Positions 2,396 to 59,680 of a DNA stretch of 64,000 nucleotides are shown in pieces (the first letter of the stretch is position 1; every line of letters begins with the position of its first letter). Below the pieces are notes generated by a model, which was not told the origin of the DNA, did not search any database, and was given only the letters and a program-made list of their open reading frames with translations. Source of the stretch: Flavisolibacter tropicus (GTDB lineage Bacteria; Bacteroidota; Bacteroidia; Chitinophagales; Chitinophagaceae); NCBI RefSeq assembly GCF_001644645.1, contig NZ_CP011390.1:310001-374000 (forward strand). The letters are read 5' to 3'. The translations under genes and the position numbers were made by a program.

Positions 2396-3253
2396 ATGAG
2401 GCAGCTTAAAATTGCTACCCAGATCACGAACCGCGATTCCCAAGCCGTAGAAAAGTACCTCCAGGAGATCTCAAAGATTCCGATGATCACACCTGAGGAG
2501 GAAACTACACTTGCCCAGCGCATCAAAATGGGGGATCAGCGTGCATTGGATAAGTTGGTGCAAGCCAACCTCCGTTTCGTGGTTTCAGTAGCAAAGCAGT
2601 ATCAACATCAGGGTTTGTCTTTAAGCGATTTGATCAACGAGGGTAATTTAGGTTTGATCAAGGCCGCTCAACGTTTCGATGAAACCAAGGGTTTCAAATT
2701 CATTTCATATGCTGTATGGTGGATTCGCCAGTCCATTTTACAGGCATTGGCAGAGCAGGGTCGTTTAGTCCGCTTGCCTCAAAACAAAATTGGCACCTAC
2801 AATAAAGCTAACAAAGCGTACATGGCTTTTGAACAAGAGCATGAGCGTGAACCAAGTACAGAAGAGTTAGCTGATATCCTGGAAATGAGTGAGACAGAGA
2901 TCAACAACATTTTCCAAAGCAATACCCGTCATACTTCGTTAGATGCTCCTGTACATGAAGCAGAAGACGTAGCCATGGGTGATTTATTAGAAGGTGGTGA
3001 TGATACCGATGATGATGTGATGAAAGATTCTTTGCGTAATGAAATTCGTCGTGTATTAAAATCACTATCACCTAGAGAAGCCGAGATTGTAAATGCATAC
3101 TTTGGTTTGGATGGTGAAAATGGTGTTACCATTGAACAAATTGGTCAGAAGTACGACCTTACAAAAGAACGTATTCGTCAGATCAAAGAGAGAGCGATTA
3201 AGCGTTTGCAGAAAGCTCGTTATAGCAATGCGTTAAAAGCCTATTTGGGCTAA
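2396..3253 (+). CDS. rpoD: Primary RNA polymerase sigma factor (RpoD/SigA type)
   Basis: The 285-aa protein directs RNA polymerase to housekeeping promoters. It contains a short region 1.2 (YLQEISKIPMITPEEE) and region 2 with LRFVVSVAKQYQ, LSDLINEGNLGLIKA and the -10 recognition segment ISYAVWWIRQSILQAL. Region 3 and region 4 follow, the latter with the helix-turn-helix VTIEQIGQKYDLTKERIRQI near residues 240-260. It lacks the long acidic region 1.1 and the non-conserved region of E. coli sigma70, which is normal for Bacteroidota primary sigma factors of about 285-290 aa. A strong hairpin with a T-run follows directly, so it looks monocistronic. Confidence 0.96.
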   Translation: MRQLKIATQITNRDSQAVEKYLQEISKIPMITPEEETTLAQRIKMGDQRALDKLVQANLRFVVSVAKQYQHQGLSLSDLINEGNLGLIKAAQRFDETKGFKFISYAVWWIRQSILQALAEQGRLVRLPQNKIGTYNKANKAYMAFEQEHEREPSTEELADILEMSETEINNIFQSNTRHTSLDAPVHEAEDVAMGDLLEGGDDTDDDVMKDSLRNEIRRVLKSLSPREAEIVNAYFGLDGENGVTIEQIGQKYDLTKERIRQIKERAIKRLQKARYSNALKAYLG

Positions 3254-3276
3254 TACGATACAAATTGATGGGTTTT

Positions 3277-3312
3277 AAACGGCCTTGGTTTAATTAAACC
3301 AAGGCCGTTTTG
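3277..3312 (+). terminator. Rho-independent terminator after rpoD
   Basis: A near-perfect inverted repeat with arms built on AAACGGCCTTGGTTTA is followed by a T-rich tail, 24 bases after the rpoD stop codon. Confidence 0.9.
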
Positions 3313-3334
3313 TTTAATAACTTTACGAGTAGTT

Positions 3335-4222
3335 ATGAAAAACAGCCTTTTACTTTTTGTCATTTCATTAAGCTTTTTCAGTTGTGAAAAAAAAGTAGAT
3401 TTTCAGCTGGAGAAAACGCAGCCCAAGTTAACCATAGAAGCTACCATTGAAAATGGGCAAGCTCCAATAGTGATTTTAAGTAATTCGATTGATTATTTTT
3501 CAACGATTTCATTACAACAGTTGTCCGGTATATTCGTTCATAATGCCATAGTTGAAATTTCTAACCAGCGTCAAACACATCGCTTAAAAGAATATGCAAT
3601 ACCCGTGGGGCCTGGTTTGTTTTATTACTATTATTCAACTGATTCATCTTCTTTATCAACGGCCATTACTGGCGAATTGAATATGGCTTACACCTTAAAC
3701 ATAACTAGCCAAAACGAACAATATTCTGCTGCTACTACTATTCCTAATATCACTAAAAAGATTGATTCTATTTGGTGGAAGCCTACGCCTAATGATACTT
3801 CCAATAAGAAAGCAACGGTAATCATGAAGGCCACAGACCCACCTGGATTTGGAGACTATGTGCGGTATTGGACTAAAAAGAATCGAGAGAGCTTTTTACC
3901 AGGATTAAACTCTGTCTTTGATGATTTAATAATTGATGGAACCACTTATGAATTGGAAGTAGAACCTGGTTTTAATAGAAACAAAAGCTGGAGTGATAAT
4001 GAGAAGGAGAGTGTTTTTCATAAGGGAGACACGGTTGCAGTTAAATTAAGCAATATAGACAAGGCTACATATGATTTCTGGCGAACTATGGAATATACCT
4101 ATCAATCTGTTGGCAATCCTTTCTCTACACCTACAAAGGTCATTTCGAATATAAAAGGCAATGCACTGGGTTATTTTGGAGGATACGCCTCTCAATACCG
4201 CCAGCTGGTTATTCCACAATAG
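3335..4222 (+). CDS. DUF4249 family lipoprotein
   Basis: The 295-aa protein starts with a lipoprotein signal peptide whose lipobox is SFFSC, with Cys at about residue 17. The mature part opens with PKLTIEATIENGQAPIVILS, the hallmark of DUF4249, and continues as a beta-rich domain. In Bacteroidota DUF4249 lipoproteins are often encoded beside TonB-dependent receptors and are presumed surface or periplasmic. Here no receptor gene is adjacent, so the substrate is unknown. It sits between the rpoD terminator and trxB, on its own. Confidence 0.8.
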   Translation: MKNSLLLFVISLSFFSCEKKVDFQLEKTQPKLTIEATIENGQAPIVILSNSIDYFSTISLQQLSGIFVHNAIVEISNQRQTHRLKEYAIPVGPGLFYYYYSTDSSSLSTAITGELNMAYTLNITSQNEQYSAATTIPNITKKIDSIWWKPTPNDTSNKKATVIMKATDPPGFGDYVRYWTKKNRESFLPGLNSVFDDLIIDGTTYELEVEPGFNRNKSWSDNEKESVFHKGDTVAVKLSNIDKATYDFWRTMEYTYQSVGNPFSTPTKVISNIKGNALGYFGGYASQYRQLVIPQ

Positions 4223-19026: not shown

Positions 19027-19415
19027 ACTGCAAGCTGCACTATCGATTCCGTTTAAATCGGGATAGGAAAGTCCGGACAGCATAGAGCAACGTATCCAGC
19101 TAACGGCTGGACATCCTCCTTCAAACGGGGAGCGAGACAGTGCCACAGAAAATAACCGCTCTGCTTTGGCAGAGTAAGGGTGAAAATGTGGGGTAAGAGC
19201 CCACGGTTGCTAGTGGTAACGCTAGTGGCGGGTAAACCTTGCGTGCTGAAATGCCATGTATAGGATCGACAGAAGGCGGCTCGTCTTCGTTCCTGTTGAA
19301 AATCAGGACGCGATCCAGGGTAGGCAGATACAGGTAGTCAGTAATGACCATCGCAGATAAATGATAGTGGTTCCGCTTCTGGCGGGATACAGAATCCGGC
19401 TTATAGGCTTGCAGT
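19027..19415 (+). ncRNA. rnpB: RNase P RNA, bacterial class A
   Basis: The catalytic RNA of RNase P, which matures tRNA 5' ends. The P1 stem is formed by ACTGCAAGC at 19027-19035 and GCTTGCAGT at 19407-19415. The universally conserved 5' block AGGAAAGTCCGGAC lies at about 19064, and the 3' block ACAGAATCCGGCTTATAGGC closes P4 near 19390-19408. The length of about 390 nt and the internal GGTAAACC block fit the A-type. A perfect -7 element precedes it, and a short T-run (ATTTTT) follows P1. A protein-like reading of this region on the minus strand is spurious. Confidence 0.96.
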
Positions 19416-19445
19416 TATTTTTGCTCTCCTAATTTCATTATCGCA

Positions 19446-19770
19446 GATTTGGGGAGTTTGGGGTTTGAAATTGGTTGGAGGCGGGTGGGTTTTGTGATTG
19501 CAGATTTTAGATTGGCGATTGCGGATTGAGGGGGAAAGCCGCTTGCTTTTAGTATCTTTAGGGTCTTCTTTTAAGGTGTTTTCTGCCTTTCTTATTACAC
19601 TTTTCTTTACTACTTCTTATGAGTTTATAAGGGTGACCGGATGACGACATACGGGTCAAGGTACGGGTGAGGTAGGGCCAAGGATCGGCCGAGGTACGGG
19701 TGAGATACGGAGTAACCTAGTCTTCCATACGGAGTAACCATGAAGGGACAGAGGCGTAGCAATGAAGGAA
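19446..19770 (+). repeat. Dispersed repeat, copy A
   Basis: About 325 bases that recur in the same orientation at 59346-59680. The best conserved blocks are GATTGCAGATTTTAGATTG, then GCTTTTAGTAT, then GGATCGGCCGAGGTAC with GGTGAGATACGGAGT, and finally CTTCCATACGGAGTAACC with ATGAAGG. Inside the copy, GGTACGGGTGAG and ATACGGAGTAACC each occur twice, so it has its own substructure. No protein is encoded. Together with the terminator at 19864 it fills the 19416-19963 gap between rnpB and the CPBP gene. Confidence 0.85.
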
Positions 19771-19863
19771 CGTAGGAGTAGCAGGCAAGGAAGTACCAAG
19801 GATTAATGGGATTTGGGGAAGGATTGACAGGATTAGAAAAAGTATGATTTTGATTTACTCCAT

Positions 19864-59345: not shown

Positions 59346-59680
59346 ATGGGAATTTGAAATTTGAGATTTGGGATTTGAAATTGGGAGGAGCTGGTGGAGG
59401 CTTTGGATTGCAGATTTTAGATTGACGATTACGGATTGGGCAGTAAAGATGCCTGCTTTTAGTATATTTAGTGCCTTCTCATTGGTGTCATTTCTTCTTT
59501 TTTGATTACTCGTTTCTTAATTATTTCTTCATGGTTAGCAGCTAAGGACATACGGACTAAGGTACAGGTGAGATAGGACTGTAGTAGGGGCCGAGGGATC
59601 GGCCGAGGTACAGGTGAGATACGGAGTTAAGTAGGCTTCCATACGGAGTAACCATGAAGGAACAGAGGCGGCGTAGCTGA
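59346..59680 (+). repeat. Dispersed repeat, copy B
   Basis: About 335 bases matching copy A (19446-19770) in the same orientation. Shared blocks are GATTGCAGATTTTAGATTG, GCTTTTAGTAT, GGATCGGCCGAGGTAC with GGTGAGATACGGAGT, and CTTCCATACGGAGTAACC with ATGAAGG. Single-base changes are scattered, for example GGTACAGG against GGTACGGG. It fills most of the 59296-59826 gap between the minus-strand secreted-protein and heptose genes. The rest of that gap is AT-rich and empty. Confidence 0.85.

Follow-up and report, generated by a model that had tools for sequence, protein, structure and literature searches.

Occurrence of the repeat in the window and in the genome

The stretch of Flavisolibacter tropicus DNA analysed here (64,000 nucleotides; the window) contains two similar noncoding sequences, copy A at 19446-19770 and copy B at 59346-59680, and raises the question of what kind of element they represent. 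An earlier note, made from the letters alone, had described them as a repeat in two copies of the same orientation, and the positions, the orientation and all of the words quoted from the copies were borne out. A search of the genome with copy A finds copy B with E=1.0e-53 and 75% identity over about 300 nt, and their similarity is therefore neither due to chance nor restricted to simple-sequence tracts. Regarding copy number, the repeat stands while the pair does not, since about 80 related copies are interspersed in the genome of 5.94 Mb.

The DNA search with A revealed at least 45 matching pieces (the best 40 of 99 candidates being scored), 22 of which start at 19547-19549; this sharp 5' edge emerged from a DNA search that preceded any definition of a terminal box. 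A covariance model of the 5' part (127 positions, built from 30 copies) detected at least 73 places at E<=1, with the best 150 of 3652 candidates scored, and the pattern ATACGGAGTWAC, which has 100 matches in the genome and 1 in a reversed control, added eight places that do not have the 5' domain. Seven of these eight, detected through the 3' unit alone, were kept as family members; the eighth, C1:1905635, sits inside a coding gene and was rejected. Surroundings of 12 kb were read around 79 places, made up of the eight pattern-only places, with the false one among them, and 71 model matches. The remaining two of the 73 model matches, both weak, were read separately and are elements.

As had been noted for A and B, the copies are intergenic throughout the family, usually 50-300 nt past the upstream ORF and 250-600 nt ahead of the next, with no preference for any gene orientation (+/+ 23, -/+ 21, -/- 18 and +/- 17 of 79). 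Their noncoding character was likewise upheld, with the qualification that an 82-aa minus-strand ORF, for which Pfam gave no match, overlaps copy A; ORFs of at least 80 aa overlap the scored stretch in 15 of the 79 surroundings, at differing positions and on differing strands. Orientation agrees with the GC-skew halves, the boundaries of which were set by eye from local skews, in 50 of 78 places (26+/14- and 14+/24-, false place left out; p=0.017), a weak bias. Divergence among the copies is graded, continuous and large; at one end of the range, two solo copies are 98.8% identical from -1 to +242 and have unrelated sequence directly 5'. The 3' edge of solo copies is diffuse. The 3' motif ATACGGAGTAACCATGAAGG was found within 3 mismatches in 46 of the 79 surroundings (one of them the false place) and was absent from 33; the 3' profile was built from 39 of the 46.

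The family matches none of 4227 Rfam families, in keeping with the earlier note, which had not recognised it as a described one: in searches with 12 element loci and the window, rnpB was the only match above threshold, and three sub-threshold matches lie outside the element. The earlier note had proposed a search of related genomes, which came back empty, as DNA and covariance searches detected the repeat in none of 57 other genomes, 34 of them from the same family (17 congeneric and 17 from other genera), the covariance search of relatives having stricter filters that lose weak matches. Together with F. tropicus itself the set comprises 58 genomes, one per species, of which 47 are at least 90% complete.

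Anatomy of the element

The span first assigned to copy A does hold the repeat, while its initial part, 19446..19547 on the plus strand (GATTGCAGATTTTAGATTGGCGATTGCGGATTG...GCCGCTTGC), is a separate module found in some copies only, and the core extends from 19548 to about 19792. A module of the same class precedes copy B (59346..59457, plus strand) and a few others; because A and B have this upstream module in common, the span originally given began about 100 nt 5' of the core. Across the family, the sequence 5' of the core is unique or belongs to one of few module classes and differs among copies. Other dispersed modules (AACAAGGAATGATG, TTCAATGCTCAA, GAACCGGGATTTGGGGAGATT, CCCCTAAAGGGGAG) build mosaics around the element, for example at L101 and L112 and upstream in L150-L164.

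The core has a common order in the family, starting with the box TTTTGTATCTTTAG and a hairpin, followed by a T-rich stretch, iterations of GGTACGGGTGAG with GGATCGGCCGAGG, two or three ATACGGAGTAACC units phased at 22 nt, and a purine-rich tail that fades near GGCAAGGAA. The number of GGATCGGCC/GGTACGGGTGAG units differs among copies. In copy A, all features of which are on the plus strand, the core (19548..19792; 144.3 bits with the covariance model) runs from the box TTTAGTATCTTTAG at 19548..19561 to GGCAAGGAA, with the hairpin AAGGT-GTTTTCT-GCCTT of 5 bp at 19573..19589, the iterated GGTACGGGTGAG units with their GGATCGGCCGAGG insert at 19660..19704 (units 19660-19671 and 19693-19704), the ATACGGAGTAACC units of 22-nt period and a subsequent ATGAAGG at 19705..19746 (units 19705-19717 and 19727-19739) and the degenerate purine-rich tail at 19747..19792; farther 3', copies differ or enter other modules. 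Upstream of copy A lies the gene for RNase P RNA class A, rnpB (19027..19419, plus strand; RF00010, 227.6 bits), as the earlier note had recognised. Copy B (core 59458..59680, plus strand; 86.1 bits) has a box, TTTAGTATATTTAG at 59458-59471, with a difference (TATATTTA); its hairpin is lost, the pairing being gone, and its 22-nt-phased ATACGGAGT units start at 59619 and 59641 on the same strand.

The promoter-like 5' box

Conservation had been placed highest in the 3' 130 bases, which does not hold for the family, where the 5' box is at least equally conserved. The 13-letter box TTTNGTATCTTTA occurs 53 times genome-wide, and in 52 cases it marks the start of an element, whereas the reversed pattern has 2 matches; the single box outside an element lies 140 nt 5' of a reading frame that by eye resembles a TonB-receptor or carboxypeptidase-regulatory-like protein. 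Among the 66 of 71 copies with 11 or more of the 14 box letters, box positions mostly reach 1.7-2.0 bits and positions upstream mostly stay below 0.4, a constancy that is partly ascertained because both the detection and the anchoring of copies relied on models containing the box.

In Bacteroidota, the -7 promoter motif has the consensus TAnnTTTG, which the TATCTTTA within the box of copy A (19553-19560, plus strand) resembles. The consensus occurs 79 times 5' of 403 ORFs versus 12 times in coding sequence and 30 times on the reverse strand, and TATCTTTA itself 9 times versus 1 and 4, whereas TAnnTTTA in general is hardly strand-specific (89 versus 69 on the reverse strand). Comparison of the box with the following 97 or so positions in nearest pairs of copies (9, 7 and 17 pairs at three levels of divergence, 33 of 34 in all, excluding copies with fewer than 10 box letters and L088) gave differences of 2/126 versus 51/844, 8/98 versus 119/658 and 29/238 versus 555/1573, so that the box varies 2-4 times less than the sequence behind it at all three levels.

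The best explanation for this retention is a function of the box, either as a promoter or as an end that a mobilising machinery would recognise, or both. If the box is functional, each resident copy probably gives rise to a short noncoding RNA with the small hairpin at its start. No conserved -33 element was detected among the box-aligned copies, which counts against a self-contained promoter.

The hairpin and the regulatory RNA alternative

Doublets within the copies had been taken by the earlier note as signs of an RNA or protein-binding substructure. The phased units are genuine, and the RNA part of the proposal proved to be limited to one covarying 5-bp hairpin in a putative transcript that, in copies A and B, is as a whole no better folded than shuffled sequence. 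RNAalifold predicts this hairpin from an alignment of 30 copies (29 distinct), in which 89.7% of the cells are paired, 18 cells are double-changed versus 5.6 in shuffles and the covariation score is 0.419 versus 0.307 (reached in 0 of 500 shuffles). In 68 copies (65 distinct) aligned without structure, from which L088 and two places with 8 box letters were excluded, the signal is weaker, with 73.9% of cells paired versus 64.7% and a score of 0.389 versus 0.263 (0 of 500). Double-changed pairs were no better than shuffled in the 68-copy alignment (324 of 500), nor were further pair types at the hairpin in either alignment (363 and 82 of 500), and RNAalifold predicted nothing from the larger set. 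Kinship among the copies inflates these covariation counts, and the hairpin data would equally fit a hairpin in DNA.

These features bear on the possibility that the family is a functional regulatory RNA, the copies being small RNA genes, each driven by a promoter of its own, which would have multiplied owing to a benefit from the RNA, for example by titrating or reaching targets in trans. The low-variation promoter-like box, the compensatory changes in the hairpin and the intergenic position of the copies agree with such a role. We nevertheless think it unlikely, since the repeat is present in one of the 58 genomes searched, divergence among copies is continuous and large, internal unit number varies, both of the copies folded (A, z +1.07; B, z +0.83) show no more base-pairing than shuffled sequence, and a scan around copy A, the one copy so scanned, detected no terminator-like site on the element strand.

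A paralogous gene family linked to the element

Part of the elements are linked to a family of paralogous genes, here called partner genes, with 33 matching stretches in the genome and proteins of 165-239 aa. The N-terminus is conserved (MAKQxGxxxxxGTIxxxxFYK; invariant M-A-x-Q-x-G-P..TGTID..FY in 14 aligned paralogs) and the C-terminal part is strongly variable. In 12 of the 28 partner proteins at L144-L171 the last two residues are KE, RE or LE. Pfam and NCBIfam gave no match for one member, PHROGs and PADLOC none for three, and a Pfam search with 60 members gave weak matches (best E 0.00098) spread over unrelated families; the fold search, with a model of low confidence, returned no convincing match.

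Linkage was assessed for 32 genes, two of the stretches forming one gene, against 81 element places including the false one. An element lies within 1.5 kb of 15 of the 32 genes, in each case on the upstream side, as compared with 1.36 expected and a maximum of 7 in 2000 draws of uniform random positions, intergenic or not. Eight of these elements are codirectional with the gene, the matched stretch lying 373-417 nt from the gene start, and seven are opposite, at 52-223 nt. Further, diverged copies 5' of partner genes are visible by eye and stand outside the count of about 80 (e.g., at L154, L157 and L173). The noncoding part without a gene is the commoner form: 65 of the approximately 80 have no partner gene within 1.5 kb, and partner-gene matches were found in 14 of the 79 surroundings, every one a known gene, with none elsewhere in them.

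In the gene-bearing form, element and gene make up a unit of about 1.15 kb, from the box to the stop codon. Among L161, L166 and L168 the common DNA starts at the box (-534), and among L161, L165 and L166 it ends at the stop codon, while common DNA with L168 ends 18 nt before the stop (L165, L166) or 7 nt after it (L161). L161 and L166 are 87.4% identical from -534 to exactly the stop codon; for L166 and L168 the identity is 92.7%, again starting at -534, over a stretch that stops 18 nt short of that codon. L165 and L166 are 98.3% identical over the last 759 nt, ending exactly at the stop codon, and 99.6% over the 235 nt preceding these, with no match at 90% in the first 125 nt or so. This pair is a chimera, best explained by gene conversion, and gene conversion instead of transposition can therefore account for some of the pairs.

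A parallel repeat in a second genome of the genus

A genome of the same genus (G014) has 22 matches to the partner protein family, and of 20 stretches examined, 13 have a block with the palindrome GATACTGCGTG..CACG within 700 nt 5' of the gene and 5 have a variant. A search of G014 with the block, 141 nt in length, gave at least 77 matches (the best 40 of 65 candidates being scored), which merge into 38 places once two that touch only the 3' end of the block are dropped. At 17 of the 38 a gene match is no more than 1 kb away, the block always being upstream of it, and 21 are solo; seven of the solo places were read and all have the palindrome or a variant, and in these seven tblastn gave only weak matches to the partner protein (best E 0.018), none of them convincing. 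The palindrome family, with its 17 gene-linked and 21 solo places, is REP-like (L286-L292). The repeat of G014 is unrelated in sequence to copies A and B. So, in two species, one gene family carries a repeat of the species' own in front of it, mostly in solo copies.

Dispersed operator arrays, in which the phased repeats would bind the partner proteins and so control the partner genes and their neighbours, would account for the elements upstream of 15 of the 32 partner genes and for the palindromic nature of the repeat ahead of the genes in G014, which is also found solo there. The 22-nt phasing is in line with protein binding as well, as 22 nt is about two helical turns. Set against this are the 65 copies more than 1.5 kb from any partner gene, the lack of a gene-orientation preference and a protein in which no DNA-binding domain and, with a model of low confidence, no fold match was recognised, and we regard operator arrays as improbable.

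Mobility and the preferred reading

The earlier note had argued that the repeat is no classic MITE, and TIR-like words are indeed no commoner than in shuffled sequence, the inverse of the box (at most 4 mismatches, +150 to +700) being found in 16 of 71 copies versus a shuffled mean of 23.2. The four gene-bearing units with defined ends have no consistent target site duplication, the longest common words being 4-6 nt, and no transposase is recognisable in the element-gene unit. Among 308 flank matches in the loci covered, 41 are not followed by a box, and no empty site was seen in the 25 of these that were viewed. The element is short, noncoding, multicopy, interspersed and intergenic, as a MITE would be; neither TIRs, as known from BOX and BrickBuilt, nor the strong folding of BOX were detected, and we therefore do not class it among the MITEs.

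The earlier picture of an intergenic repeat was thus incomplete, as it did not include the family of about 80 copies, the sharp 5' box and the linkage to paralogous genes. On balance, the family is probably a non-autonomous interspersed mobile repeat, seen in this genome alone among the 58 searched, of which A and B are solo copies. It may be a small mobile element, perhaps with a duplicated gene as its partner. In such an element, the fuller form would comprise the TTTTGTATCTTTAG box, the hairpin, the iterated units, a second promoter-like leader (recognised by eye) and the gene of the orphan family up to its stop codon; the partner protein or another host factor would act in trans, and gene conversion among copies would homogenise and shuffle the internal units. 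A bolder reading, which we hold to be rather doubtful, is that element and gene form a mobile unit of an undescribed class, with no transposase, TIR or TSD recognised, the box as its 5' end and, as its 3' end, the stop codon of a gene with a variable C-terminus. In this reading, the paralogs of each species would carry and spread a repeat of their own, which would come to outnumber the gene in solo copies, and in F. tropicus every solo copy would also be able to start a noncoding RNA.

Alternatively, a Y1 (HUH) transposase could move the element by single-strand transposition as in PATEs and REPs, the subterminal hairpin serving as recognition signal. The lack of TIRs and of a consistent TSD, the position of the one hairpin about 25 nt inside the sharp end, the weak replication-strand bias (50 of 78, p=0.017), the REP-like palindrome of G014 and the occurrence of three Y1_Tnp genes in the genome are compatible with this mode. 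However, no element lies within about 1.4 kb on either side of these three genes, no second hairpin was seen by eye at the 3' end, which is not sharp, and a similar leading-strand share (60.8%) is reported for BOX (PMC3049150), which together make the involvement of a Y1 transposase very unlikely. The three Y1_Tnp (RAYT-like) genes (L279, L280, L281) have other flanking repeats, unrelated to the element. An origin by chance, in which a gene leader underwent segmental duplication and gene conversion and has no function today, might be suggested by the chimeric pairs and the mosaic of other repeat modules in the flanks; it is scarcely credible given the 5' edge that stays sharp where the flanks are unrelated, the constant box in nearest pairs and the parallel case in G014.

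Comparison with known systems

Regarding known elements, the preferred reading of a non-autonomous mobile repeat has its closest counterpart by description within the Bacteroidota in BrickBuilt, a species-limited, intergenic, multicopy MITE of Porphyromonas gingivalis with tandem units of 23 nt (22 nt here) and internal promoter activity, where the present element has a promoter-like feature (PMC4596501). BrickBuilt has 19 copies in one strain, TIRs that were compared with those of ISPg1/ISPg9 and TSDs in three of four copies examined (PMC4596501); unlike it, the present element has about 80 copies, no TIR or consistent TSD, its promoter-like box at the very end and a linkage to an orphan gene. 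BOX of Streptococcus pneumoniae is modular, with constant end modules and variable internal units; its secondary structure is extensive, and its TIRs have been likened to ISSpn2 (PMC3049150). A constant end, variable internal unit number and the strand share (64% here) are common to both, the 3' end module being diffuse here, whereas the present element, judged from A and B, is no better folded than shuffled sequence and has no TIR.

In common with REP/REPIN-RAYT systems and the PATEs of IS200/IS605, the family has solo copies that outnumber gene-linked ones, no TIR or consistent TSD and a subterminal hairpin, and the repeat of G014 is a palindrome; it differs in that the partner gene has no Y1_Tnp or Pfam match and the three Y1_Tnp genes are unlinked to the element. 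RAYTs carry and spread REPs, and a gene family that goes together with a species-specific, mostly solo repeat is reminiscent of RAYT/REP, here with a different protein. If the preferred reading is true, an element with no known transposase has dispersed about 80 promoter-like boxes in a lineage of Bacteroidota and is linked to an uncharacterised protein family that occurs across the phylum; the parallel in G014 would then make this a second case of a REP-RAYT-like partnership, in which the protein is new, and the orphan protein family would gain a role that can be tested.

The partner family in other Bacteroidota

Homologues of the partner protein comprise 145 proteins, three of them named from Flavisolibacter MAGs, and none of the 120 listed has a Pfam domain. 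The family was detected in 13 of the 58 genomes, including that of F. tropicus, with 12 matches in one of them (G031), and at 37 loci in named genomes, among them Chitinophaga, Terrimonas, Aequorivita and Leeuwenhoekiella. In other Bacteroidota, the proteins have about 250 aa and the gene stands ahead of a DUF5675-like gene in 6 of 12 loci read, whereas the partner genes of F. tropicus encode 165-239 aa with a variable C-terminus and have the repeat in front. The pair of partner-family and DUF5675-like gene looks like a conserved cassette. The DUF5675-like genes are at L250, L251, L256, L262, L268 and L270 (about 2501-3900), with PF18925 confirmed in L268 and L270, and in several of these loci small membrane-protein-like ORFs come after them.
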